The translations under genes were made by a program, and so were the position numbers. Below the pieces are notes generated by a model that was not told where the DNA came from, made no database searches, and saw only the letters and a program-made list of their open reading frames with translations. 64,000 nt of DNA, taken from contig CATQHT010000003.1 in assembly GCA_958296045.1 (NCBI GenBank), positions 693,246 through 757,245 of the forward strand, given 5' to 3'. Shown in pieces: positions 7,557 to 58,397 of this stretch (the stretch's first letter is position 1; each line of letters starts with the position of its first letter). The stretch is from Rhodothermales bacterium. GTDB lineage: Bacteria; Bacteroidota; Rhodothermia; Rhodothermales; Bin80.

Positions 7557-8559
7557 TCATCCACCCCCGCGGATATGTGCGGTCTGAAACCGTTGCGCCA
7601 TGCCTATGTTGCGGATTTTTCGGCGTTCCACTCATGCTGCGCAGTTGCAGGTGAGCGCTCCGAAGAGCAGTGGGTAGTGAATCATGCCTGGTATAGAGGG
7701 TGTGTGCGGAGAAGGAATCAGTCTACCGATCATTCCTTGCCAGCCGCACGGCTTTATGTCAATCACGCTCTTTGCGCTTTCCGATCATGCCTGGGGTTGC
7801 TGGCGACGCATTGCCCAGCGCAAGTGACCCGCGTTCAAGGAGCGTAGCGGTATTTGGGCAGGGTTCCCGCCAATGGGAGGAGGTGTGTGCCGCATGGGTG
7901 GTGCCGCGTATCTTTCGGCGTTGGGTGACCAGCCAATCTGCTCTCCGCCGTCCGATCTTCCGACACAATGAGCACGCTACCAACACAGTTAAGCATTCAG
8001 GAGCGCTTGGAACAACTCCGGGATGCCTTTCAGACGGGCAGCTCGGCTGATACCTTGCCCTTGGTGCTCGATTGGCCCAGGCTGCAGCTGCAGATCGTCT
8101 TGGTTTCCTTGGAAGCGGAAAGGGACGCAGTATGCGGCATACGGTTCAGCAGGAATGCCAGCGATATGGACCGATATCATCGGTGTGGTTCCAATTCCGG
8201 ATCGGTCGAGATTGATGGGCGCCTTGTGCGGATCAGAGTACCTTGCGTGCACGGATTGGTCAATAGTACCTCCCACAAGGTCGAGCAATAATTCAACCTG
8301 TTCAAGATGCAGACTTTCGGACGGATATGTTGCGCATACTCACACCCACGGTGCTGAGCCTTTTAGCGCTGGCACTGGGGTTTGGCCAAGGCTCCGACCT
8401 TCGCGCGCCGTTGGCAATCGACATTACGGGCGGACTGACCAGTGCCTCCGTGGCCACGCTGTGTTGGCACACAGGGCCGCCCATGCACAAGATGTATACT
8501 GATCCCGAAGATATGCGATCTATCAGCCGTAGCGCGTTTGATTTGGCGTTGAAGCGTAA
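7557..8559. other. Long intergenic region, no convincing gene
   Basis: About 1 kb separates the DsbA-like gene from the end of the TPR-thioredoxin gene. Open frames of 90-160 codons exist on both strands (for example 7968-8291 plus and 7989-8288 minus) but overlap each other and show no family features. The only structured element recognised is one copy of a dispersed repeat at 8277-8327. The region may be decayed coding or mobile DNA. Confidence 0.4.
8277..8327 (+). repeat. Dispersed ~50-bp repeat, copy 1
   Basis: It carries GCAATAATTCAACCTG followed by TTCAAGATGCAGACTTTCGG. The first half matches copy 3 (36247) and the second half matches copy 2 (32871, opposite strand). It lies in non-coding DNA. 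Confidence 0.6.
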
Positions 8560-10972: not shown

Positions 10973-11168
10973 TTCGCCCCATGCGCAGCGAAGTCGGGGC
11001 TTATTTTGTGGCAATCTGGCCTCAAAGTATGGGTTATACCTATGATCCATATGGCTTTGATACCTTTTTTTTCTCAAAAATACTCAATGTAGTGGAATGG
11101 TCCAGAACCATTTCGCTGCAAAGCCGTATATTGACGCATGGGCACCCGATACCCGCACGCTCACACGC

Positions 11169-12977
11169 ATGTACATCCGCGCCAAGACACGCATCCTTAA
11201 ATCAGGTGCCAAGGCCACCAGCTACGCGCTGGTCGAATGCCACCGTATCAAGGGCGCTCCTAAACAGCGGACCGTCCTCAACCTGGGCCAATCCTTCGCA
11301 ATCCCCAAAGAACAATGGCGCGCATTGATTCTCCATATTGACGAGGGCTTACGAGGACAGAGCCGCCTAGCGTTTGAGAGTGAAGGCCTCCGCCATGCCA
11401 GCGAGACCATCGTTGAGAAGCTGCTGGAAAAGGGCTACAACGTGGACGACCCACGCGATGACCGGGATGCCGTCATCATTGATGAAGTCCATCATACTGA
11501 CACTCGTACCGTCGGAGGCGAACGTGTGGCTCTGAAAGCGTTGCAGCTGTTGGGATTCGCAAAGTCCTTGCGAATGCTGAAGTTGCGCGAAGATCAGATT
11601 CACTTGGCGACAGGGCTGGTGGTCGGGCGCATGCTCTTGCCCGGCAGTGAACGACATACGCATGAATGGATGCACGAACGATCCAGCATCCTGGAGTTAC
11701 TGCACTGCGACCTCCCCAGTCTGAGCAGCCTTTACCGTATCGGAGATGCCCTCTACGAGCACCGTCAGTCGATCATGGATGCACTCTTCGGCACCACGAA
11801 GGAGCTCTTGGGATTCAGCGAAACCATTGCCTTCTTTGACCTGACCAATGTGTTCTACACGGGCCGCAAGAAAGGGGACTTGCTGCGGCATGGTCGCAGC
11901 AAGGAAAAACGGTCTGATTGCCCACTGGTGACGTTGGCCTTGATGATGGATGCATCGGGGTTCCCCCGCACGGCGGAAATCCTCCCGGGCAATGCCAGTG
12001 AGCCTGCCACGTTGCACCAGGCCATTGCACAGCTGAACGGAGCCAAGCCCACGGTGATTATGGACGCTGGCATCGCTACAGAGGCCAATCTGGCGTATTT
12101 GGACGAACAGGATCTGGACTGGATCTGCGTGCAGCGTACGAAGTCCCCGCCGGTACCCAAAGACACACCGGATCAAGTCTTCAAAACCGCCAGCGATGTC
12201 GACGTGCGTGCCTGGGCACTCCCAGACGAAGGAGGAGAACGGCGCGTGTATCTGCACAGTGAAGCCCGACAAGCGGTCAGCGACCAGATTGTTGGAGCAA
12301 AGCGTGTGAAATTCGAGGAGGCTATCGCGCACCTGAACGCGGGACTTGCGCTGCCCAGACGTCTGAAGAACTTCGATAAGGTGCAGATCCGGGTGGGCCG
12401 ACTCATAGAAAAGTACAAGCAGGTTGCCTACCAGTATGATGTTAAAGTGACCAGGAAGGCCGGCAGCACCCACGCCGAAAAGATCTGCCTCACACAGAGG
12501 CCTGCCTACGAGGCATGTACGGAGGCCCTCGGCGGGTATGTACTGCGCACCAGCCACGCGGAATGGTCGGTCAAGAAAATCGCACAGACCTATTGGCAGC
12601 TAGGAGAGATCGAACGCACGTTGGGCACCATGAAGTCGGATCTCGGATTACGTCCGATCTACCACAGTCGGGACCTTCGCATAGAAGCCCACCTCTTCCT
12701 GTCCATTCTCGCCTTTCACGCAGCGCATCTGATACGCAGCCGATTGAGAACCGTCAACATCCACAGCAGCTGGGGCACACTCAAGGTCAAGCTCAACCAG
12801 ATGCATCATGTAACAACCGTGCTCCCACAAAACGCAACCCATTGCACCCTGCTCAAGAAAGACCAGGACCTCAAGCCGTTCCACCGTAAAGTCTTCCGCG
12901 CGATGGGGCTCAAAACCGGCACGTACACCCGCAGAATGAAAGCAAGACGCCCCGCTAAAGGGCACGCGAACATGTAA
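11169..12977 (+). CDS. IS1634-family transposase
   Basis: A DDE transposase of the IS4 superfamily (IS1634 group), 602 residues from ATG 11169. This start gives MYIRAKTR, the usual opening of the family; the frame is open 24 codons further up. Early residues read YALVECHRIKGAPKQRTVLNLG, a typical family N-terminus. The centre holds the catalytic core with FFDLTNVFYTGRK and VTLALMMDASGFP. The C-terminal catalytic Glu is in YWQLGEIERTLGTMKSDL, the Y/E/K signature of this superfamily. The frame is complete with no internal stop. A decayed relative lies at the right edge of the window. It should cut and paste its own element. Confidence 0.9.
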   Translation: MYIRAKTRILKSGAKATSYALVECHRIKGAPKQRTVLNLGQSFAIPKEQWRALILHIDEGLRGQSRLAFESEGLRHASETIVEKLLEKGYNVDDPRDDRDAVIIDEVHHTDTRTVGGERVALKALQLLGFAKSLRMLKLREDQIHLATGLVVGRMLLPGSERHTHEWMHERSSILELLHCDLPSLSSLYRIGDALYEHRQSIMDALFGTTKELLGFSETIAFFDLTNVFYTGRKKGDLLRHGRSKEKRSDCPLVTLALMMDASGFPRTAEILPGNASEPATLHQAIAQLNGAKPTVIMDAGIATEANLAYLDEQDLDWICVQRTKSPPVPKDTPDQVFKTASDVDVRAWALPDEGGERRVYLHSEARQAVSDQIVGAKRVKFEEAIAHLNAGLALPRRLKNFDKVQIRVGRLIEKYKQVAYQYDVKVTRKAGSTHAEKICLTQRPAYEACTEALGGYVLRTSHAEWSVKKIAQTYWQLGEIERTLGTMKSDLGLRPIYHSRDLRIEAHLFLSILAFHAAHLIRSRLRTVNIHSSWGTLKVKLNQMHHVTTVLPQNATHCTLLKKDQDLKPFHRKVFRAMGLKTGTYTRRMKARRPAKGHANM

Positions 12978-13046
12978 AACACACCGGTAAGACCCGGCCT
13001 TCTGATCGTCCCTGTATGTCAGGGATGTGTTACCTCACGTAAAAAA

Positions 13047-13067
13047 TCCACTACATTGACAAACTTG
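13047..13067 (-). repeat. Right terminal inverted repeat of the IS
   Basis: This 21-bp stretch, read on the minus strand, fuses both left-end motifs: CAAGTTTGTCAAT and TCAATGTAGTGGA, overlapping at TCAAT. It is probably the complete terminal repeat. Confidence 0.65.
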
Positions 13068-13217
13068 GGCTAGGTAAGGATGCCGCAGCCAGCCTGAAGC
13101 CGAGGATTCCGCATTGCCATAGTGGACCACATCCAAACATGAGCAGGGAATGCACCTACGCCAAATGCATACCACGAACCGGTTACATTGCGGCTGCAGA
13201 ACGGAGCGTAGCCGCTG

Positions 13218-32777: not shown

Positions 32778-33129
32778 TGTCGACGCCATCGTGATCCATT
32801 TCTGCAACGGCATGCAGCGGGGCGGCGGTAGCGTTCAGAAGCAGCGGCTCCTGCTCCGCCTCCGGCACGGTATCCGTCCGAAAGTCTGCATATTGAACAG
32901 GAAGTGTTATTTCCTAGCCTGAAGCCGATAAACGGCGCCAAAGAACCACCTCCGCGCTGCTCCAATCAGCTGGATTGCGCTCAGTTAACCGACATTCCGG
33001 GCGGATACCCTAATGCAATACCCAGGCAGACCAACGGTCTGATTGGGCGTGTCGTCAGGAGTAAGTCGGTGTGCTCAGCAACGTACCCGTCGTGCCAGTG
33101 GCTCAGCGCATGCGCGTTCCCTGAATACA
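32778..33129. other. Intergenic region between symporter and RM gene
   Basis: No gene is recognised. It contains dispersed-repeat copy 2 (32871-32921), which sits on the left of the MmeI-type gene and is inverted relative to copy 3 on its right. Confidence 0.4.
32871..32921 (-). repeat. Dispersed ~50-bp repeat, copy 2
   Basis: Read on the minus strand it contains CCTGTTCAATATGCAGACTT then TCGGACGGATA, almost identical to the second half of copy 1. It faces away from the RM gene, as copy 3 does on the other side. Confidence 0.6.
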
Positions 33130-35949
33130 CTACTTACCCTGGCCGAATAGCGGATCGGCGACGCCTGGCGGCGTGCACATTTTCTCGTAAAGTATGAACA
33201 GGTGCTCGATTCTTTCCCTGTCGGAGTCAAAAGACCTGGACCTGTACAGGCGATCCACAGCCCGGTCAAGCTTTCGGTGCGCGAGCCTCAGGCTGCTCGG
33301 CATCGACTCTGGATCGTACAAATGCTCCAGCGCCGCTTGGGGATGAGCAGCACGGGCTTCCAGCACGGATTTCGCCAGGGACACCAGCGTAAGATTCTCT
33401 GCTTCGCTCCTGCTGAAGTCGGGTGGGCTGGGAAAAGTGTTGTAAACGATGCCAATCGAGTATCTATACCCGCTCCCCAACCGACCGGCCACATTGCGGA
33501 TCCAAGTCATATGCATGGCCGATGTGAGCAGCGCGAAATCAATCAACGAAGCACCCTGCAGGACCAGCAATGCATCACTCGGAATTGCAGGAGACTCCAG
33601 CCATCCGATAGGAACGTACTGGCGCTTCTCCGTGCTAGTCTTCGGAATAACCAGAAATGGCGTAGTCGGAATCACGTTGATATGGTACTTTCTTGGCACC
33701 TCCGCCAACTTCCGCGTCGATGCGGCCTTGCTGGACAATCGAAAAGTTCGCACGGCTTGCATGCGCTTCTTTACGTGTGGCAGGCGGCTCAGAAGTTGGG
33801 GCGCAGCATCGTGCAAGGCCAAAATCCAGCGCTCCTGGCCAGATAAAAACTCCCTCGCACCTACAAACGGTCGCAAGAGCCCGTGCGCTCCAGGCTCTAA
33901 TTCCAGAAACGCACGGCGCTGTTTCGGGGTAAATATGTAATGGCCTTTGTCGATCGGCTTTGACCCGATGATGAGCTTGGGCAGACTGTTGATCGGTCTT
34001 CGAGCCTCGACAACCGTAAGGTGAGGGTTGCGCAGCAGCCCCGCGCCAATCAGGTAAGGACTGATGGCACGGTGGCTGCTTGCTTCTGGCTCACCTTCTA
34101 TATCGGGATAGCTGAAAAGTAACCGCGACGCCCGCGCCCGTCCACGTTTCTCGACTTCGCGCTTCTGAAGTCCAACGATGACGACATGCACATGCGCCGC
34201 ACCGCGCGCAGCAGACCGCCACCGGAAGGCCTGATGCGCAAAGCATATCTCGAGCTCGAATCGGTCAAATAGCAACGGCCACAGCTGCCCGACTTGTTGA
34301 CCCTGCACGATGGAACTAGTCGCCACAAAGCCGATGCGCGCACTTCCGCTCTGCACGTATGCACCGGCCTTGATGAACCACGCCGTAACGTAATCGAGGG
34401 TACCCTTCCGCCCTTTTAGGGCAGCGATACGGTGCACCTGAGCCCGCTGTTTGACCGACTGTAGCTTCGCACCCGCAAACGGCGGGTTACCCAACACGAC
34501 CGTACATTCCTCGGCGGGCAAGACTTCTGACCAGTCCTGCTCCAGTGCGTCACCATGGACGATATTCGGCGATGCATTCAATGGAATCCGCACGAAGGAC
34601 TGGCCGAATTCCTGGCTCACAAGGTTGTTCATTATGTGATCCATCATCCACAACGCCGTTTCGGCGACGCGTACCGGAAACTCGCTGATTTCAATACCGA
34701 AAAACTGATCTACATCTACGATAGATAGGCTCCACCGTATATCAATCCCGCGCTGCCCCTGCATACCGCGGGCGGCCAACAGCTCCCGCGACACGTCAAG
34801 CTCCAAAAGGCGTAACTCGCGATACGCAATGACGAGAAAATTCCCGCAGCCACAGGCAGGATCGAGGAAACGCAGACTCCGCAATTTGCGCTGAAAACGC
34901 TCTAGTTCCACCGTACGCCGGGTATCGCGCCGATCTCTTAGCCTGTCAAACTCGGCACGCAGTCCATCCATAACCAAGGGTCCAATAACCTTCAGAATGT
35001 CTTGCTCTGAAGTATAATGAGCACCTTGCGCACGTCGCAGAACAGGATCCATCACGGACTGAAACAGCGCACCAAAAATCGCTGGTGAAATGGCGGACCA
35101 GTCAAATCTGCAGGCCTCCAGCAGGAGCTGGCGCATCTTCGCGTCAAACGACGGGATGCGCAGCGGGCCTGCGAACAATTCGCCGTCCACATACGGAAAG
35201 CGATTCAGCTCCTCGTCAAGCGCGGCCTGCCGCGTTTCTATGGGCTCATCCAACGTTTGAAACAACAGGGCAAGCCATGTGCCCAAGTCCGCCCCATCCT
35301 CACTCGTTCTCTCTTCAATCAGCTCCTGGAATGCACCGCGTTGTGCAAAGACCCCTGTATCGTCTCCAAACAAGCAGAACACGATGCGCACCAGAAACAC
35401 CGCCAGGTCGTGCCCGCTGTAGCCGGCGGCAGCCAAGCTGTCGTACAGCTTCCCGACCAGTTCCGCAGCTTTGATGTTCGCAGGGTCCTCGTCTTGGAAC
35501 GACCGTCTCTGCAAGCCGAGCATGAAGCCAAAGGCTTCCACATGCTCGGGAAACTCGGCCAAGGTAAACGCGGTAACCTTGCGCTCCGCCAAGTCATGAA
35601 GTTCAAAGAGCTGGAAGTCGCTTACCAGGATGTACTGGGGGCGCTCATGCTCGGCCAATGCATCGAAATACTCCCCCGCCTGATCATAGGCACGCGACAG
35701 ACTGCGACCCGCGCTCTTTTGCTCCACTATCAGCGTGCCCGGCCAAAACAGATCGATGTACCCACTCCCAGAGCCGAGCTTGGCTACATGCTGCTCATAG
35801 CGCGCAACCGACCGACGCTGTATCCCAAAGACCTGAAAAAGCTCGTTGTAAAAGCTCTGGGCCTCCCCTCGCTCGTAGGCCGCATCCTTCCATGTTCGCA
35901 CAAATCCGTGGGCACGGATGCGAATCTCATTCCATGATAGCCGAGGCAC
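33130..35949 (-). CDS. MmeI-type (type IIL) restriction-modification enzyme
   Basis: A single 939-residue chain that both cuts and methylates DNA. The N-terminal nuclease has the D-x9-ExK motif of MmeI (Asp66, Glu76, Lys78 in YIDLFWPGTLIVEQK). A helical connector leads to an adenine methyltransferase domain with AdoMet motif I LDPACGCGNF (362-371) and motif IV NPPF (488-491). The C-terminal third is the likely target-recognition domain. These enzymes usually methylate one strand and cut about 20 bp from the site. No separate methylase or specificity gene is adjacent, consistent with the single-gene format. It stands alone on the minus strand between inverted repeat copies, suggesting horizontal mobility. 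Confidence 0.92.
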   Translation of the reverse strand: MPRLSWNEIRIRAHGFVRTWKDAAYERGEAQSFYNELFQVFGIQRRSVARYEQHVAKLGSGSGYIDLFWPGTLIVEQKSAGRSLSRAYDQAGEYFDALAEHERPQYILVSDFQLFELHDLAERKVTAFTLAEFPEHVEAFGFMLGLQRRSFQDEDPANIKAAELVGKLYDSLAAAGYSGHDLAVFLVRIVFCLFGDDTGVFAQRGAFQELIEERTSEDGADLGTWLALLFQTLDEPIETRQAALDEELNRFPYVDGELFAGPLRIPSFDAKMRQLLLEACRFDWSAISPAIFGALFQSVMDPVLRRAQGAHYTSEQDILKVIGPLVMDGLRAEFDRLRDRRDTRRTVELERFQRKLRSLRFLDPACGCGNFLVIAYRELRLLELDVSRELLAARGMQGQRGIDIRWSLSIVDVDQFFGIEISEFPVRVAETALWMMDHIMNNLVSQEFGQSFVRIPLNASPNIVHGDALEQDWSEVLPAEECTVVLGNPPFAGAKLQSVKQRAQVHRIAALKGRKGTLDYVTAWFIKAGAYVQSGSARIGFVATSSIVQGQQVGQLWPLLFDRFELEICFAHQAFRWRSAARGAAHVHVVIVGLQKREVEKRGRARASRLLFSYPDIEGEPEASSHRAISPYLIGAGLLRNPHLTVVEARRPINSLPKLIIGSKPIDKGHYIFTPKQRRAFLELEPGAHGLLRPFVGAREFLSGQERWILALHDAAPQLLSRLPHVKKRMQAVRTFRLSSKAASTRKLAEVPRKYHINVIPTTPFLVIPKTSTEKRQYVPIGWLESPAIPSDALLVLQGASLIDFALLTSAMHMTWIRNVAGRLGSGYRYSIGIVYNTFPSPPDFSRSEAENLTLVSLAKSVLEARAAHPQAALEHLYDPESMPSSLRLAHRKLDRAVDRLYRSRSFDSDRERIEHLFILYEKMCTPPGVADPLFGQGK

Positions 35950-36622
35950 CTGCAGTATCAGTTCTGTGTTTCGGTCACGTTCCCGGCTGGACCTGGCTCC
36001 TTGTGCCTATAAAGGTCCGCTGGAGTTCCGATCTGCAAAAATACCCCGTTGCGCCATCAAAATGTGCGACTCTTTCAGTGCTTAACCCAAAGGACAACTG
36101 GGCCCGGAATGATCCTTGCGGTGTCAGCTCTAGATGGTTGGCAACACCCGTCTGACAGGCCGGGAGGAGCCGGATGCGTGGAGACGCGCACGTCTGGATC
36201 TGTGAGAGCTTGGGGATGCGTTTCCCCCCGGCTACTCGACTCCCGCCAGGTCGGGCAATAATTCTACCTGAGCAATATGCAAACCCTCCGATCCGGCATG
36301 AGCTCCGCCCTTGGCATCTGTTGCCATTCGGGTTCCGGCAGCGATTCCACGATCTGGAGTGGTTCCATGCTAACGCGAACAACGCTTACCAGAAGCCTGA
36401 GCGGATATGCCGGGTGGTTCATCGGTTCCACTGCGTAGCGGTTGGCGTCGTCAACGATGCTGCATATTCCGCCGAATCGAGGGGTGCTGTCCGCAGCTAC
36501 GCGTGGCCTCGCTGTTAAGCCCACCAGGTCCCCCGCGTCCGCAGCGTGCCCTGCTTGGATTCAAGGCACCACGGCGCTGCTCTATCGTTCCACTGTGCTG
36601 AGCCGTAACTGTGTGAGAGAGC
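35950..36622. other. Intergenic region between RM gene and GroES-like gene
   Basis: About 670 bp without a convincing gene. It holds dispersed-repeat copy 3 (36247-36296) and presumably the promoters of both flanking genes. Open frames on either strand look compositionally random. Confidence 0.4.
36247..36296 (+). repeat. Dispersed ~50-bp repeat, copy 3
   Basis: It contains AGGTCGGGCAATAATTCTAC and CTGAGCAATATGCA, matching copy 1 over the first 28 bases with only a few changes. The tail is more diverged (CCTCCGATCCGG in place of CTTTCGGACGG). Confidence 0.6.
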
Positions 36623-49412: not shown

Positions 49413-51254
49413 ATGACGGACGGACTGCCGGATGGCAGGCGCTGCGCCACCATTGCCTTTGCCGTGCTCCTGTTGACCGGCTCCGCTCTTTCGGGCTGCG
49501 CACGAGACGAAGCGCTCTTTCGGCGACTGGCTCCCGCACGCACCGGCATCACGTTTGTCAACGCCCTGACCCCGTCGGAAACGCTCAACACCTACGTCTA
49601 TCGCAACTTTTACAACGGCGGCGCAGTGGCCATCGGGGACGTCAGCGGGGACGGGATGGCAGACCTGTTCTTCAGTGGCAATCAAGTGTCCAACCGGTTG
49701 TACCTGAATCGCGGCGACTTTCGCTTCGAAGATGTCACCCATGCCGCCGGGCTGACTTCTGCAGGCATCTGGACTACAGGAGTCACCATGGGCGACGTCA
49801 ATGGTGACGGATGGTTGGACCTGTATCTGTGCAAAGCCGGGCCGCCGGGCGGCCCTAGGCGTCACAATGAGCTCCTTATCAATAGCGGTCAAGGTACCTT
49901 CGCCGATAGTGCTAAGGCGTGGGGGCTGGCGATCGAAGCGCTGTCTGTGCATGCTTCCTTTCTGGACTACGACCTCGACGGCGACTTGGACCTGTACCTA
50001 TTGAGCAATCCGCTGCAAGCGCTCGACGAACTTGAGCCAGCCCCCGGGCTGCGTCACATCCCCGATCCCGGCGGCAACAGACTGTTCCGCAACGACCTTG
50101 CACCTCACGGCACACGCCGCTTTACGGACGTCACCCAGGAGGCAGGCATATACAGCAGCAGGATCGGTTTCGGGCTGGGCGTGTCCGTGAGCGACATAGA
50201 CAGGGACGGATGGCCCGACCTATACATCTCCAACGATTTTTTCGAGCGGGACTACCTGTACATCAACAACCGAGACGGCACGTTTAGCGAGTTACTGGCT
50301 CGATCAATGCCCTCGGTCAGCCTGAGCTCGATGGGCGGTGATGTGGCCGACCTCAACGGAGACGGATGGCCCGACATTTTTGTGTCCGACATGCTTCCGG
50401 CATCACAAGCGCGCCTGCAGTCGAAGATCTTTTTCCCCTCCTGGAAAGAAGAAAGGGCCAAGTTCGAGGCCGGGTACCATCACCAAGCGACACGCAACTC
50501 CCTTCAGCTGAGCCGTGGCATCAGCCCCGAAGGTACGCTCGTCTTTAGCAATGTAGCAAGGCTGCTGGGCATAGAAGCTACGGACTGGAGCTGGGGCGGG
50601 TTAATCGCCGACTTTGACCTGGATGGTCGACGAGACCTGTTTGTGCCCAACGGCATTTATAAGGACCTTCTGGATCAGGACTTTATCGGACGCATATCGA
50701 GCCGTGACACGCTGCAACGCATCATGCGCACCGCCGCCGATCCCATCATGGCTATCCTGGCACGCCTACCTTCAGAACCGTTGCCGAACGCGGTCTTTGC
50801 GCAGCGGGCCGCAATGGCCTTTGAGAACCTGAGCATGAGATGGGGCCTGGACGAGCCGGGATTTTCCAACGGAGCAGCCTACGGAGACTTGGACAACGAC
50901 GGGGACCTTGATCTGGTTACCAACAATGTTAATATGGAGGCCTTCGTATACGAGAACCGGGCGGACCGCAGAGCGTCAGGGCATTGGCTGAGCATCGTGC
51001 TCCAGGGGCGCGCGCCCAACACCATGGGAATCGGTACGCAGATCACCGCGTGGCATGACGGCCGCCAGTGGCATGTGGAGCAGCAGCCGGCGCGTGGCTT
51101 TCTCTCCAGCGTGGATCCCGTCCTGCATATGGGGCTTGGCCCAGTTACACTGCTTGACTCGGTTGTCGTTCACTGGAGCGGTGGCCAGCAGGTGCGGCTC
51201 AGGAATGTAGCCACCAGGCAGAGAATCAGAGTACAAGAAGATGACGACGGTTAG
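49413..51254 (+). CDS. VCBS/FG-GAP repeat lipoprotein with ASPIC-UnbV domain (short form)
   Basis: A 613-residue lipoprotein (lipobox ALSGC) of the CRTAC1-like group. It contains repeated FG-GAP/VCBS blades with calcium-type motifs such as DVNGDGWLDLY, DYDLDGDLDLYLL and DLDNDGDLDLVTNN, predicted to form a beta-propeller. An ASPIC/UnbV module ends the protein (GIGTQITAWHDGRQWHVEQQ, then LDSVVVHWSGGQ). It matches the first halves of the next two large proteins and lacks their second propeller half. The next gene overlaps its end by 14 bp. Function is unknown; surface carbohydrate or protein binding is plausible. Confidence 0.86.
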   Translation: MTDGLPDGRRCATIAFAVLLLTGSALSGCARDEALFRRLAPARTGITFVNALTPSETLNTYVYRNFYNGGAVAIGDVSGDGMADLFFSGNQVSNRLYLNRGDFRFEDVTHAAGLTSAGIWTTGVTMGDVNGDGWLDLYLCKAGPPGGPRRHNELLINSGQGTFADSAKAWGLAIEALSVHASFLDYDLDGDLDLYLLSNPLQALDELEPAPGLRHIPDPGGNRLFRNDLAPHGTRRFTDVTQEAGIYSSRIGFGLGVSVSDIDRDGWPDLYISNDFFERDYLYINNRDGTFSELLARSMPSVSLSSMGGDVADLNGDGWPDIFVSDMLPASQARLQSKIFFPSWKEERAKFEAGYHHQATRNSLQLSRGISPEGTLVFSNVARLLGIEATDWSWGGLIADFDLDGRRDLFVPNGIYKDLLDQDFIGRISSRDTLQRIMRTAADPIMAILARLPSEPLPNAVFAQRAAMAFENLSMRWGLDEPGFSNGAAYGDLDNDGDLDLVTNNVNMEAFVYENRADRRASGHWLSIVLQGRAPNTMGIGTQITAWHDGRQWHVEQQPARGFLSSVDPVLHMGLGPVTLLDSVVVHWSGGQQVRLRNVATRQRIRVQEDDDG

Positions 51255-51840
51255 GGGACCGATCATCTTGTGCGCGCTGGCACTTGCGGCTACCACATCG
51301 ATTATGGCGTGCAGCGATGGCGGCTCCGACAGTGAACGAATACGCACACAAGAGGACTCCCTGTTTCTGGGGTACTGGCTGGGCATGCCGCGCGACTCGT
51401 TCTATGCTCATAGCTGGGCACTGAACCGGAAGGGACTCATCATGCAGGGACCCAGGAACCAGCATATCAAACTCTCACTGGACACTACTTTCGCGCACCC
51501 GGCCACGCTCCTTTTCTATCCCGACTTTTTTGACGGAAAAATCGCGCGGATGCGCATGCGGTTCAGCTATGACGGATGGGCTCCGTGGAATAAGTTTCTT
51601 TTTGCGGACACGATGATAGTCGACATCGTAGAGCTCATGCAGGCATGGTATGGGGAAGGCTTTGGCAGTCGCCCAGTCCAGGGGCCCTTCGGCAGAATCG
51701 TTCCGCAATACACCAACATGGGCCAAGCACGGCGCATCAGCATACAAGTGCTGGACGACCGCGAGGTCGGTGTCCTTATTACAGACCTTGGAGCAGAGCG
51801 ACGCATGGCCGAAGAGACGGACACGGATGTTCCAGACTAG
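51241..51840 (+). CDS. Small hypothetical lipoprotein
   Basis: A 199-residue protein with a signal peptide and lipobox SIMAC. The rest shows beta-rich strings (LFLGYWLGMPRDSFYAHSW, MRMRFSYDGWAPWNKFLF) and no family I recognise. It overlaps the preceding gene by 14 bp and the following gene by 14 bp, so it is translated from the same message as the VCBS lipoproteins. It may be a partner or accessory of those proteins. No function is assigned. Confidence 0.72.
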   Translation: MTTVRGPIILCALALAATTSIMACSDGGSDSERIRTQEDSLFLGYWLGMPRDSFYAHSWALNRKGLIMQGPRNQHIKLSLDTTFAHPATLLFYPDFFDGKIARMRMRFSYDGWAPWNKFLFADTMIVDIVELMQAWYGEGFGSRPVQGPFGRIVPQYTNMGQARRISIQVLDDREVGVLITDLGAERRMAEETDTDVPD

Positions 51841-54800
51841 GCTCGTTCTTTGGGCCATCGCCCTGATCCCGTTGGCATGTGCCCAGGACGACCTGGCGCC
51901 GCTCTTCCGGCTTCGCCTAGATTCCGGGGTGACGTTCGTCAACAGCCTGCGCTACGACCCAGACTTCAACGTCTACCGTTACCGCAACTTCTACAACGGA
52001 GGGGGCGTGGCGCTAGGTGATGTCAACGGTGACGAGAGGCTGGACATCTTTTTGACCGCCAACCAGGGCCCCAACCGGCTGTACCTGAACCAGGGAGGCT
52101 GGACCTTCGAAGACGCCACCGAACAGGCCGGTGTGGCAGGCATGCGCGCCTGGTCCACCGGCGTGAGTATGGCCGACGTTAATGGCGACGGGTGGCTGGA
52201 CATCTATGTGTGCAACTCTGGCATCGTGTCTGGAGACGATCAGCGCAATGAGCTGTACATCAACCGCGGCGACGCGACCTTTGTCGAACAGGCTGCGGCC
52301 TATGGCCTGGACGACACAGGGCTTTCCATCCATGGCGTATTCTTCGACTACGACCGCGATGGCGATTTAGATCTCTACCTGGTCAATAACTCGTTTAAGA
52401 GTATTGAGGACTTCGATCAGGAAATCAACACCAGGCACCTGCGTCACCATGCGGGAGGAGATAGGCTTTACCGCAACGACGGCAGCCGATTCCATGATGT
52501 GAGTCAGGAGGCTGGCATTTATGGGAGCGAAATCGGGTTTGGCCTTGGGGTTTCTGTCGCCGACGCCAATCGTGACGGATGGCCAGACCTGTACGTTTCC
52601 AATGACTTTTTTGAGCGCGACTACTTTTACCTCAACCGCGGCGACGGCACTTTCGAGGAAGTGCTAGAAACCAGTATGCGCAGCGTCAGCGCAGCGGCTA
52701 TGGGCGCGGATATGGCAGACCTTACGGGCAACGGCTATCCCGACATCTTTGTCACCGACATGCTCCCGGCACTTGAAGGGCGCCTGAAGACTGTAACTTC
52801 TTTCGATGACTGGCCTCGCTACCGCAGATATATACGGGACGACTACTTCCATCAGTTCACCCGCAACACACTTCAGATTGGTCTGGGGCCAGGGCCCCAT
52901 GTCGCTGCCCAGTTTATGGAGGCTGGGCGGTATGCTACCGTGGAGGCCAGCGACTGGAGCTGGGGCGCGCTCATCGCCGACTTTGACCACGACGGATATC
53001 GCGACATCTTTGTAGCAAACGGCGTCGTGCGGGACCTCACCAATGCGGACTACCTGGTAGAGGTCAACCGGCCCGCAATGGTGGCTAAATTGGCCTCGGG
53101 CGACTCAGTGCACTGGGCACGGCTCATTGACATGATTCCTTCGGTGTCCGTATCCAATCACATGTTTGCCGGCCTTGGCACCTTACGCTTTGAGGACCGT
53201 AGCCAGCCCTGGGGCCTGGATACGCCGGGATTTTCCAACGGAAGCGCCTATGGAGATATCGACAATGACGGTGACCTGGACCTTGTAGTAAGCCATACAG
53301 GCCAGAAGGCCAGCCTGTACGAGAATCGGGTGACCGAGGTCTGGCCGGAGCACGCCTGGCTGCAGGTGGTCTTCGAAGGTATGCCTCCCAACATTTTCGG
53401 GGTCGGTGCCCAAGTTACGGCCTGGGCGGAGGGTCGCTCGTGGTATGCTGAGCAGCAGCCCACAAGAGGGTACCAGTCCGGCAGCGACCCGGTGCTGCAC
53501 TTCGGGCTAGGTCTGGGCGTCAATATGCTGGATTCGCTTGTCGTCTATTGGTCAGGCGGCCGTGTGAACCGCCTCATAGACATCGCCACATATCAGCGGT
53601 TGCGCGTGCGCGAGGATGCGGCCCGCGGGCCATTTGCGGCATGGCCGCCGACGGCTACGCCGGCCATAGACGAAGATGAGCCATGGCTGACACCGGTCAG
53701 CCCCCAATCCCTGGGGCTCCTGTGGCGACACCAGGAAAACACCTATAACGACTTTGAGCAGCAGCCGCTTCTCTTTCATATGCGCTCTACAGAGGGACCT
53801 GCAGTCTGCGTGGGGGACGCGAACGGCGACGGACGGCAGGACCTGTACCTGGGCGGCGCCCGGCGTCAGCCCGGCTCCCTCTGGCTGCAGACCAGGTCGG
53901 GCCGCTTCATGCGTTCGCAGCAGCCTTTGATAGCTCAGGACAGCACCCACGAAGACATCGCGTGCGCCTGGCTTGACCACGACGCAGATGGCGATCAGGA
54001 CCTGTATGTGGCAAGCGGCAGCAGCGAACTGCCCGCAAGCAGCTCGCTCTTGATCGACCGGATCTATGTTAACGACGGACGCGGCACCCTGGAGCGTCAT
54101 TCCTTTGCATATACGGGACGCCAGGGCTTTGAGCCGACCAGAGCCTTGGCCGTCGGAGATGTCAACCAGGACCAAATCCCGGACCTGTTTGTCGGCGCGC
54201 GCCTGCGCCCCTTTGCCTTCGGTCTGCCTACGGACGGTCACCTGCTCTTGGGACAGCCTCTTGAAGGGTTCCGCGAAGCCACCGACACGCATGCACCGCA
54301 GCTCCGGGAGCTGGGGATGATCACCGCGGCCACCTGGGGCGATGTAGATCTCGACGGCGACGTGGACCTAGTGGTGGCGGGCGAATGGATGCCGCTCATG
54401 GTGTTCTTCAATGACGGGGGGCGCCTGGTACGTGGTCCCGCCGGTCTGGACGGTACACGCGGCTTGTGGCAATCTCTCGACGGCGCGGATCTCGACGGCG
54501 ACGGCGATCTGGACTTTGTGGCTGGTAACCATGGACTTAACAGCCGTTTCCGGGCTGCCCCGGAAACGCCGATGGAGATGTGGACCGCCGACTTTGACCG
54601 CAACGGGCGCGTGGAACAGGTCATCACCCGCTACAGCAAGGGGGAGCCCTACCCTATGGCACTCCGTCACGACCTGGTCGAGCAGATCCCTGCGCTGCTG
54701 GCGCTGTTTCCGACGTATGCCTCATTTGCTGGAGCCACGGTACGGGACATATTTGTCGAAGCACAGCTAAGCGAAGCCATGCACCTTACGGTGACGGAGC

Positions 54801-55156
54801 TCAGAAGCCTGGCACTTATCAATGACGGCACCGGGCACTTCACTACGGTACCTTTGCCTTTTGAAGCGCAGATGAGCCCGATCTATGCCGTGCTCGCATT
54901 GCCTCTGGGTCCTGATCCCCATCCTGTCATCCTTTTGGGCGGCAACCTTTACGAGGCTAAGCCTCAGGTTGGGCGTTACGATGCCAGCTACGGGACCACA
55001 TTAAGCCACACGTTAGAACCCGTACGATGGACCCGGTCCGGGTTCTGGATTGACGGTGCCGCGCGTGCGATCGTGCCCTTGCGCGCGGGTGAGCGCAACC
55101 TTGTCGTAGTGGCCCGCAACAACGATTCCCTGCGCGTCTTCGCCTATGACCCGTAG
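51827..55156 (+). CDS. VCBS/FG-GAP repeat protein with ASPIC-UnbV domain (long form)
   Basis: A 1109-residue envelope protein. ATG 51827 gives MFQTRLVLWAIALIPLACAQ, a signal with a weak lipobox (PLAC). The frame continues upstream to 51650 but overlaps the small lipoprotein. Two propeller halves of FG-GAP repeats (DVNGDERLDIFL, DYDRDGDLDLYLV, DLTGNGYPDIFVT, later DANGDGRQDLYLGG and DVDLDGDVDLVVAG) flank an ASPIC/UnbV module near residues 500-590. The first half aligns with the 613-residue neighbour and with the following paralogue. Such proteins often accompany SusC/SusD systems in Bacteroidota. No SusC/D is in the window. The next gene overlaps by 11 bp. Confidence 0.87.
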   Translation: MFQTRLVLWAIALIPLACAQDDLAPLFRLRLDSGVTFVNSLRYDPDFNVYRYRNFYNGGGVALGDVNGDERLDIFLTANQGPNRLYLNQGGWTFEDATEQAGVAGMRAWSTGVSMADVNGDGWLDIYVCNSGIVSGDDQRNELYINRGDATFVEQAAAYGLDDTGLSIHGVFFDYDRDGDLDLYLVNNSFKSIEDFDQEINTRHLRHHAGGDRLYRNDGSRFHDVSQEAGIYGSEIGFGLGVSVADANRDGWPDLYVSNDFFERDYFYLNRGDGTFEEVLETSMRSVSAAAMGADMADLTGNGYPDIFVTDMLPALEGRLKTVTSFDDWPRYRRYIRDDYFHQFTRNTLQIGLGPGPHVAAQFMEAGRYATVEASDWSWGALIADFDHDGYRDIFVANGVVRDLTNADYLVEVNRPAMVAKLASGDSVHWARLIDMIPSVSVSNHMFAGLGTLRFEDRSQPWGLDTPGFSNGSAYGDIDNDGDLDLVVSHTGQKASLYENRVTEVWPEHAWLQVVFEGMPPNIFGVGAQVTAWAEGRSWYAEQQPTRGYQSGSDPVLHFGLGLGVNMLDSLVVYWSGGRVNRLIDIATYQRLRVREDAARGPFAAWPPTATPAIDEDEPWLTPVSPQSLGLLWRHQENTYNDFEQQPLLFHMRSTEGPAVCVGDANGDGRQDLYLGGARRQPGSLWLQTRSGRFMRSQQPLIAQDSTHEDIACAWLDHDADGDQDLYVASGSSELPASSSLLIDRIYVNDGRGTLERHSFAYTGRQGFEPTRALAVGDVNQDQIPDLFVGARLRPFAFGLPTDGHLLLGQPLEGFREATDTHAPQLRELGMITAATWGDVDLDGDVDLVVAGEWMPLMVFFNDGGRLVRGPAGLDGTRGLWQSLDGADLDGDGDLDFVAGNHGLNSRFRAAPETPMEMWTADFDRNGRVEQVITRYSKGEPYPMALRHDLVEQIPALLALFPTYASFAGATVRDIFVEAQLSEAMHLTVTELRSLALINDGTGHFTTVPLPFEAQMSPIYAVLALPLGPDPHPVILLGGNLYEAKPQVGRYDASYGTTLSHTLEPVRWTRSGFWIDGAARAIVPLRAGERNLVVVARNNDSLRVFAYDP

Positions 55157-58100
55157 CACAGGGCAGGCGGCGCTCATGGTCGCCTTGCTTGCCGCGGCCT
55201 GCGGCGAGCCCACAGAAGAGACGCTATTCACCAGGCTCGAAGCCTCAGAAAGTGGCATCGGGTTTGTGAATGAGTTGGCTTTCCAGGACGACTTCAACAT
55301 CATAGAGTACCTCTATTTCTATGATGGCGGGGGTGTTGCAATCGGCGATGTCAACCGTGACGGGCTCCAAGACATCTTTTTAACAGGTAACCAGGTATCT
55401 AACCGGCTGTACCTCAACCGTGCAGATCTTCGTTTTGAGGATGCTACGGAGGCCGCTGGTCTGGCAAGCACGGGGTGGTCAACCGGTGCCACTATGGCCG
55501 ATGTCGACGGCGACGGATGGCTAGACCTGTACGTGTGCCAGGTCAGCTACAAGAACCAGAGCGGACGAAATCTGCTGTATCTGAACCAACAGGACGGCAC
55601 ATTCGAGGAGGCGGCTTCCCGGCTGGGGCTCGATTTTGAGGGGCTCTCCACCCAGGCCGCGTTTCTTGATTATGACCGTGACGGCGACCTGGACCTGTAC
55701 CTGCTCAACCATTCGGTGCACACGCGGGGATCGTTTGTGCCAGCGTGGCGCCGCACGGTCGATGCGCCTAGGGTCGGCGACCGCCTCTATCGCAATGAAG
55801 GCGGAGAGTCGTTCACCAACGTCACCTCGCAGGCGCGCATTCACAGCAGTGCCCTTGGGTATGGACTGGGCCTGGCAGTAAGCGATATCGACGACGACGG
55901 GTGGCCAGACATCTACGTCGGCAATGACTTCCACGAGGACGACTATCTGTATCTCAACCAGCAGGATGGGACCTTTGAGGAAGTCTTGCGCCATGTCGCT
56001 GGCCACACGAGCCAGTCGACCATGGGGGTGGATATCGCAGACATCAATGGAGATCTCTGGCCCGACATCATTGCACTTGACATGATGCCTGCGGATTGGG
56101 CCACATACCAGGCGTCCGGGGGACCAGACGAGGAAGGTATAGCGGCCATCAAACGGCGTCTGGGCTACGGCTCTCAGGTGACGCGCAACACAGTGCAGAT
56201 GCACCGCGGCTTAGGCGCCGACGGCTATCCGCGATTCAGCGAAGTCGGTGCTTACCTGGGGCTACATGCCACGGACTGGAGCTGGGCACCTCTCTTGGCC
56301 GACCTTGACGGTGATGGATGGAAGGACCTGTTCGTGACTAATGGCATCCCGCGACGTCCGAATGATCTCGACTATGTCGCCTTTGTCGGGCTGCCTTCTA
56401 CGCAGCGCATCTTAAAGGAAGGCTCTGCCGCGGATATCCAGCGGGTCACCCGGCGCATGCCAAAAGGGCATGCATCCAACTACGCCTTTAAGAGCCTTGG
56501 GGGATTGTCTTACATCGATGTGTCGTCGGCCTGGGGACTCCACATGGTAGGCAGCTCTCAGGGCGCTGCCTGGGGAGACCTCGACAATGACGGCGACCTG
56601 GATCTGGTAGTGAGCCACATCAACGCCCACGCCTCGGTCTATCGCAACAACACCGTCGATGCACACCACCTCTCGGTATCACTTCAGGGCAATGCGCCCA
56701 ACACTTCCGGTATCGGCAGCCGCGTTGTCGTTTATGCAGGCGGACGCGCGCAGATGCAGGAGCAATTCCCGACGCGCGGTTTCCAGTCTTCCGTGGCGCA
56801 TATATTGACTTTTGGATTGGGTACAGCCGCCGTTGCGGATTCCGTAGTTGTGCGATGGCCCAGCGGCGGCACGCAGACTCTACGGAGCATCCGGGCCAAT
56901 CAGCGCTTGGTGCTAGATGAGGGTGTGACATCACCGGCTGCACTCGCGGTGCGGCTCCCTGCCAGCGAGCCGCTATTGATCGAAGTGCCTGACCGCATCC
57001 CTTGGCGCCACGCTGAAAACTCGTTTGAAGACCTGGTGCGTGAGCCGCTGTTGCTTTACAGGATCTCTACGCAGGGTCCGGCCCTCGCGGTCGCAGACGC
57101 AGACGGTGACGGACTGGACGACATCTTCCTTGGTGGCGCCCGGGGGCAGGCCGGGGTACTGTTCTTTGGTGGGACCACCCGGTCGTTGCAGCCCGCACTC
57201 GATGGCGATGCATTGCATGAGGATGTTGGGGCCACCTTTCTTGATGCCGACCTGGACGGCGACGCGGACCTGTATGTCGTGAGCGGGGGCGGGGAGCCGG
57301 ATTCTGCGCTTTGGGCCGACCGCCTGTATTTCAATGACGGTGCTGGTACCTTTACGAAGAGTGCTGGCCGCCTGCCTGCGCTGCATGCCAACGGCTGCTG
57401 CGTGCAGGCGGCCGACTTCGACCTGGACGGCGATGCAGACCTCTTTGTGGCTGCGCGATCGCTTCCGGGCCACTATGGTGTGCGGCCATCCAGTGCCCTC
57501 CTGGTCAACGACGGAACGGGTTTGTTTCGCGACGCTACAGCAGAATTCGCTGCGCCGCTCTTGAACCTGGGGATGGTAACCGCTGCTGCATGGGCGAATG
57601 TCACCGGCGATGCCGCGCCAGACCTCGTCGTGGTAGGAGAATGGATGCCTATCACTATCCTGGCCAATCGTGACAGCTACCTTTACGATGTGACCAATGA
57701 GCTCGGGCTGGCGGATACGGACGGATGGTGGCAGAGCGTGCTGGCAGGCGATTTTGACGGGGACGGCGACACGGACCTAGCGGCTGGCAACCTCGGCCTG
57801 AACCATGTGCTTCCCACTCCGATGCATCTATATGTCCACGATTTCGACCAGGACGGGCGCAGCGACCCGATAATAACCTGGGGTGATCCGAGCCGGCTCT
57901 GGGCGCGCCGGGACATCCTTTCGCGTCAGATGCCTGCGCTTGCTTCGGTGGCGCCCTCCTATAGCGCATATGCAGGCATGAATGCCAGCGCGTTGGTCAA
58001 CACGTCATCCAAAGAGCCTCTTACCGCGCACACATCTGCCTCCGCGTGGCTGGAAAATACCGGTACCTTCGCGGTGCACGCCTTGCCAGATGCCGCGCAG

Positions 58101-58397
58101 TGGGCTCCCATTATGGGCATGGTACACCATGATATCGACGGCAACGGCTTACGAGACGTCGTTGCTGTCGGAAACCTTTATGGTGCTGGCGCGGCCCTCG
58201 GTCCGTTGGATGCCAGCTTCGGCACGGTTCTGCTGCAGACCAGCCCGGGGACCTTTATTGCGGCTGACGCGCAACCGTGGACTATGCGAGGCGATGCTCG
58301 CGGTGTACGCCTATTCAGTTCCGGCGTGTCAGAGATGGCGCTTGTAGTCGCACATTCGGACGGGCAGCCACAGGTATTCCGTCTGCGTGCGCGCTGA
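55146..58397 (+). CDS. VCBS/FG-GAP repeat lipoprotein with ASPIC-UnbV domain (long form)
   Basis: The third paralogue, 1083 residues, with lipobox AAAC in an Ala-rich signal sequence. The layout matches the preceding gene: first set of FG-GAP repeats (DVNRDGLQDIFLTG, DVDGDGWLDLYVC, DYDRDGDLDLYLL), ASPIC/UnbV module near residues 510-590 (GIGSRVVVYAGGRAQMQEQ, VVVRWPSGG), then a second repeat set (DADGDGLDDIFLGG, DADLDGDADLYVV). It ends the overlapping lipoprotein array. A gap of 81 bp separates it from the symporter gene, where TTGTCC and TATATT may mark a new promoter. Ligand unknown. Confidence 0.87.
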   Translation: MTRSTGQAALMVALLAAACGEPTEETLFTRLEASESGIGFVNELAFQDDFNIIEYLYFYDGGGVAIGDVNRDGLQDIFLTGNQVSNRLYLNRADLRFEDATEAAGLASTGWSTGATMADVDGDGWLDLYVCQVSYKNQSGRNLLYLNQQDGTFEEAASRLGLDFEGLSTQAAFLDYDRDGDLDLYLLNHSVHTRGSFVPAWRRTVDAPRVGDRLYRNEGGESFTNVTSQARIHSSALGYGLGLAVSDIDDDGWPDIYVGNDFHEDDYLYLNQQDGTFEEVLRHVAGHTSQSTMGVDIADINGDLWPDIIALDMMPADWATYQASGGPDEEGIAAIKRRLGYGSQVTRNTVQMHRGLGADGYPRFSEVGAYLGLHATDWSWAPLLADLDGDGWKDLFVTNGIPRRPNDLDYVAFVGLPSTQRILKEGSAADIQRVTRRMPKGHASNYAFKSLGGLSYIDVSSAWGLHMVGSSQGAAWGDLDNDGDLDLVVSHINAHASVYRNNTVDAHHLSVSLQGNAPNTSGIGSRVVVYAGGRAQMQEQFPTRGFQSSVAHILTFGLGTAAVADSVVVRWPSGGTQTLRSIRANQRLVLDEGVTSPAALAVRLPASEPLLIEVPDRIPWRHAENSFEDLVREPLLLYRISTQGPALAVADADGDGLDDIFLGGARGQAGVLFFGGTTRSLQPALDGDALHEDVGATFLDADLDGDADLYVVSGGGEPDSALWADRLYFNDGAGTFTKSAGRLPALHANGCCVQAADFDLDGDADLFVAARSLPGHYGVRPSSALLVNDGTGLFRDATAEFAAPLLNLGMVTAAAWANVTGDAAPDLVVVGEWMPITILANRDSYLYDVTNELGLADTDGWWQSVLAGDFDGDGDTDLAAGNLGLNHVLPTPMHLYVHDFDQDGRSDPIITWGDPSRLWARRDILSRQMPALASVAPSYSAYAGMNASALVNTSSKEPLTAHTSASAWLENTGTFAVHALPDAAQWAPIMGMVHHDIDGNGLRDVVAVGNLYGAGAALGPLDASFGTVLLQTSPGTFIAADAQPWTMRGDARGVRLFSSGVSEMALVVAHSDGQPQVFRLRAR

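Follow-up and report, generated by a model that had tools for sequence, protein, structure and literature searches.

An intact restriction-modification (RM) gene lies between inverted copies of a short repeat in the genome of a Rhodothermales bacterium, which raises the questions of what the repeat is and how the gene came to its present site. The locus is part of a stretch of 64,000 nucleotides (positions 693,246 to 757,245 of contig CATQHT010000003.1), which is referred to here as the window. According to a preliminary description, the arrangement could be a mobile RM cassette moved by an enzyme that recognizes the repeat.

The RM gene and the repeat copies in the window

The features of the locus are listed in Table 1. 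The RM protein combines five MmeI Pfam domains in one chain (MmeI_N, hel, Mtase, TRD, and C), as expected for the MmeI family, and PADLOC matched it to REase_MTase_IIG with 1066 bits. The gene starts with GTG, and with the motifs D66-X9-EQK, DPACGCG, and NPPF present in a pattern search, its product is a putative restriction and methylation enzyme.

Table 1. Repeat copies and associated features in the window
Feature	Position	Strand	Evidence
Copy 1, orphan IRL end of IS66-family element	8250..8328	+	nhmmer E 3.9e-24; R2 model 88.3 bits
Copy 2, complete 139-bp miniature IS66-derived element	32870..33008	-	IRL and IRR profiles/end models
MmeI-family type IIG RM gene, 939 aa, intact	33130..35949	-	Pfam, PADLOC
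Group II intron 3' fragment, 150 nt	36091..36240	+	RF00029, identity to genome copies
Copy 3, decayed IRL end of IS66-family element	36241..36298	+	BLASTN, profile E 4.5e-8, end model

The repeat is present three times in the window, as the preliminary description had it. In a BLASTN comparison within the window, copy 1 is 97% identical to copy 2 over 31 nt (E = 2e-9) and 82% identical to copy 3 over 45 nt (E = 1e-7), and a 26-base pattern allowing up to 3 mismatches matched exactly copies 1 to 3 (0.01 matches expected). The geometry was also described correctly: copies 2 (minus) and 3 (plus) are inverted, with their tips pointing outward, and lie 3.4 kb apart with the RM gene between them. 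The length of about 50 bp, on the other hand, falls short for copy 1, which is longer, and for copy 2, in which the repeat (32870-32919) is one half of a larger element. The tip of copy 1 is at 8328, with its first base mutated, and no partner end was found within 10 kb. The exact repeat pattern had 0 matches in the viral contigs scanned.

Two other regions of the window were noted. An open reading frame at 11097-12977 (plus strand) belongs to a DDE_Tnp_1 transposase gene, and the 814 bp at 12262-13075 share 97% identity with a second copy at C1:706500-707313. Three adjacent large open reading frames at 49413-58397 (plus strand) consist of recurring motifs of the D-x-D-x-DG type and carry direct repeats 43-169 nt long; they may be FG-GAP/VCBS-like.

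Identification of the repeat as an IS66-family left end

When the genome that contains the window (4.78 Mb, 4 contigs) was searched, the repeat turned out to be the left terminus (IRL) of an insertion sequence of the IS66 family that is abundant there. Nearly all of the 32 BLAST matches have one sharp outer boundary, GGATAC, and a variable inner extent; the longest repeat-bearing copies are autonomous elements of approximately 3.3 kb that encode TnpA, TnpB, and the DDE_Tnp_IS66 transposase. One full copy (L061), 3373 bp in length, has tips that match each other and is flanked by an exact target duplication of 8 bp, GGAGATCA; its open reading frames match PF03050 (280 bits) and PF05717 (103 bits), and NF033517, NF033819, and NF047593 above their cutoffs. 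Both hallmarks of the family are thus found in this genome: full copies encode the transposase together with the accessory proteins TnpB and TnpA, and the terminal inverted repeats match and are accompanied by an 8-bp target duplication (6 end pairs with 8/8 flanks). The IRL is the tnpA-side end and has only the tip in common with the opposite end (IRR). From knowledge of the family, it is presumably the terminus that the IS66 transposase binds and acts on.

Sequence-only covariance models of both ends, applied at E up to 1, gave 36 IRL and 63 IRR matches. End pairing used 35 IRL and 50 IRR ends, leaving out the weakest 1 and 13, respectively, and flanks were compared for 80 of these 85 ends, the tips of the other 5 being missing or outside the match. 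The tip starts with GTAT at 64 of the 80 ends. The ends are scattered throughout the genome as solo ends, fragments, and whole IS copies; an exact target duplication is present in 3 of the 13 whole elements tested, and most lack it. At E 0.001, the IRL model matched none of 11 relatives, with the window's own genome serving as the positive control. The copies in the window are ends alone, without a transposase, and no remnant of the IS66 transposase genes was found there.

Three other identities of the repeat were considered. A site of an unknown recombinase or an integron-like site, and a 5'-truncated retroelement, an idea suggested by the fixed outer boundary and differing inner lengths of the copies, were both rejected because the full copies proved to be IS66. 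A piece of a group II intron was also rejected, the repeat being absent from all but 1 of the 30 intron loci retrieved.

Elements flanking the RM gene

Copy 2 consists of an IRL half (32870 to approximately 32919) and an IRR half (approximately 32920 to 33008) with tips GTATCC...GGATAC, and is oriented with the IRL tip on the left and the IRR tip towards the RM gene. It is short, has no transposase gene, and retains both ends of the parent family, which makes it a miniature inverted-repeat element. Its match to the IRR profile has an E value of 4.5e-35, copy 2 itself being among the 5 sequences from which that profile was built. The 8-bp flanks of copy 2 (CCGGCACG and CCTAATGC) agree at 2 of 8 positions and hence do not form a target duplication of its own.

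Copy 3 is placed and oriented as in the preliminary description. Its outermost 10 or so bases are degraded, and its inner side breaks off where the 3' part of a group II intron ends, an intron that the description did not report. Copy 3 scores 45.4 bits against the end model over model positions 23-74 of 81, and is one of the model's 19 sequences. The intron fragment contains domains 5-6 at 36165-36240 (Rfam RF00029, 51.3 bits; gathering score, 40) and is 82-86% identical over about 150 nt to copies in the same genome (among L011-L020). The notion that the RM gene lies inside an intron is unsupported, as the recognizable intron comprises the last 150 nt only.

Group II introns are very abundant in this genome, with 75 RF00029 matches (E up to 10), 35 of them above the gathering score; examples are C3:764768-766720, 2362120-2363928, and 339071-341964. 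Several domain-5 copies are 1-2 kb apart, suggesting nested introns, and many copies have only the 3' part in common.

The insertion site in relatives

The RM block occupies the gap between a symporter gene and a Cpn10 gene. Both genes are present in 14 of 15 genomes of the same family, and in all 14 they are separated by 7-318 bp, measured between match ends, with no MmeI homolog at the site; the distance in the window's genome is 3848 bp. The same locus without the RM gene, proposed earlier as a check, was therefore found in every family genome that holds both flanking genes. Judged by presence and absence, the RM block is an insertion specific to this lineage and entered the gap after the split from the family relatives. 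The nearest relatives are too far away for the intergenic junctions of the gap to be aligned.

MmeI homologs are patchily distributed (11 of the 39 genomes searched, the window's own included) and are often fragments. In named genomes, homologs of up to 65-66% identity to the RM protein occur in many phyla, some in genomes titled as sponge bacteria.

Paired IRL ends and target duplications

The 8-bp flanks of all left-facing ends were compared with those of all right-facing ends (45 x 35). Perfect 8/8 matches were found for 6 pairs, each on one contig and within 16 kb: 4 are IRL-IRR elements, and 2 are outward-facing IRL-IRL pairs, C2:136674-142409 with the target duplication GTAAGGAG and C3:1263119-1278352 with CGTGCAAC. 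Composite IS66 transposons of this geometry have therefore moved cargo in this genome. Within 16 kb, a limit that was set after the 15.2-kb pair had been seen, 4 of 5 IRL-IRL pairs face outward, compared with 0.89 expected by random placement (P = 0.012); the enrichment of inverted pairs that had been put forward as a genome-wide check is thus present. The other outward pairs are the window pair and C3:1637981-1641303. The latter, at 3.3 kb similar in size to the window pair, was considered as a second cassette and set aside; it holds a DUF418/YeiB-like gene scoring below the family cutoff. It has no target duplication and contains apparent IS66 remnants, read by eye, one such frame having no Pfam match.

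The 15.2-kb composite (within locus L184, C3:1262000-1279500), which has the exact 8-bp duplication, has its left IRL split by a 1.9-kb insertion with an ISNCY-family transposase. Among its cargo is an 846-aa frame (L184:7770-10307, minus strand) with no PADLOC or Pfam match; residues 450-838 match NCBIfam antiphage_EruA with 102 bits, far under the family cutoff of 1000 and a lead only. The cargo of the 5.7-kb IRL-IRL composite (within locus L188, C2:135500-143500) includes a repetitive, coiled-coil-like 296-aa frame at L188:5026-5916 (plus strand).

At the canonical outer ends of the window pair, the flanks CCGGCACG and TGAGCTCC agree at 3 of 8 positions, and a composite target duplication is thus not seen. 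A sequence matching the left flank at 7 of 8 positions, CCGGCATG, lies at 36293-36300, which is 5-6 nt inside the projected end and overlaps the degraded tip (P = 0.02 under the null when 35 offsets are considered, and 0.005 for 10). As a target duplication, this shifted near-match is suggestive at most, because the best gapped alignments place the end of the copy 3 element at 36294-36301 rather than at 36292.

Possible routes of arrival of the RM gene

The idea of a cassette moved by a repeat-recognizing enzyme has gained a transposon end for its repeat, an empty site in the relatives, and an excess of outward pairs, two with perfect duplications; what it lacks is agreement between the outer flanks of the RM pair. 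The RM block has the layout of a composite transposon, i.e., two arms of one family, inverted, with active ends outward and cargo between them. The leading reading, to which we give an even chance, is that it is a decayed IS66 composite. Two inverted IS66-derived arms with outward IRL ends would have formed the vehicle and the RM gene its cargo, and IS66 TnpA/B/C acting in trans on both outer IRL ends would have moved it. The left arm may later have decayed to the 139-bp miniature element, and the right arm may have lost its inner part at the group II intron fragment, while mutation degraded its outer tip. Given the decayed arms and right tip, the RM block can probably no longer move as a whole.

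Also quite credible, although at somewhat less than even odds, is that the RM gene came by another route, e.g., recombination after horizontal transfer, and that the miniature element, the IS66 end, and the intron inserted independently into a neutral, recently gained island, in which case the inverted outward pairing would be coincidental. Solo ends, whole elements, and fragments of IS66 are indeed scattered over the genome, the window pair has no common target duplication, and copy 2, being a complete small element, could have inserted alone. Against coincidence, outward IRL-IRL pairs are over-represented, two of them being composites proven by their flanks, and IS66 tips within 400 bp of a random 2.8-kb stretch are rare on either side (P = 0.013) and on both sides (P = 0.0006), both values assuming uniform placement, so that clustering of IS elements in islands would weaken them. 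The paralogs of the RM gene point both ways. An IRR end lies 337 bp past the 3' end of paralog C (C3:2742841-2745141), facing the gene as in the window, which counts for the composite; the elements beside paralog C and the window gene are not each other's closest relatives and would therefore be separate insertions, as independent arrival would have it. No IS66 end lies within 9.7 kb of paralog B, the third MmeI gene in the genome, and in named genomes the available flanks of 80 RM-homolog loci (the best 80 of 298) contained this end family in 0/80 and IS66 TnpB/TnpC in 0/80; both results count against the composite. The linkage to IS66 is therefore not general in this RM family, which, with homologs in many phyla without this IS, also moves by other means.

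It is very improbable that the RM gene is instead a passenger within a single IS66 element, replacing the tnp genes between an IRL and an IRR end. IS66-like elements of 0.8-7.7 kb with such ends exist in the genome, but both outer ends at the RM locus are of the IRL type, which already disfavors this explanation, copy 2 carries an IRR of its own on the side towards the RM gene, and the window lacks any detected tnp remnant.

Comparison with known systems

The IS66 copies in this genome are similar to ISPpa5a and ISPpa7, which have several genes, imperfect terminal inverted repeats, an 8-bp duplication, and a size of about 3 kb (PMC3281130). Unlike ISPpa5a and ISPpa7, the copies in the window are ends only, of a family found in 0/11 relatives. 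MmeI-family type IIG enzymes have nuclease, methylase, and target recognition domains in one chain (PMC4081073); the RM gene shares this organization and is otherwise ordinary among them. Takahashi et al. (2011; PMC3031569) describe RM complexes that are flanked by IS elements and are putative composite transposons. The window RM gene likewise lies between IS copies and differs from those complexes in being a single-gene MmeI-type system with IS66 ends, decayed and without a target duplication. IS-linked movement of RM systems is thus already published, and the window locus adds one more example. Titles and abstracts of the open-access literature searched describe no IS66 composite with an MmeI-type gene, and absence there is no proof. 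The parts of the locus are ordinary, and the history proposed for the RM block is plausible and partly tested.

We tentatively suggest, as a possibility that is rather doubtful, that IS66 elements in this lineage serve via their IRL ends as a pairwise shuttle for anti-phage genes, namely a gene partly related to EruA (a NACHT antiphage protein) in C3:1263119-1278352 and the MmeI-type RM gene in the older window composite. An unexplained repeat is now a named transposon end, pairs of which move cargo in this genome. The locus is a concrete case, open to testing, of the way in which bacterial chromosomes may acquire single-gene restriction enzymes, whose distribution among relatives is patchy.
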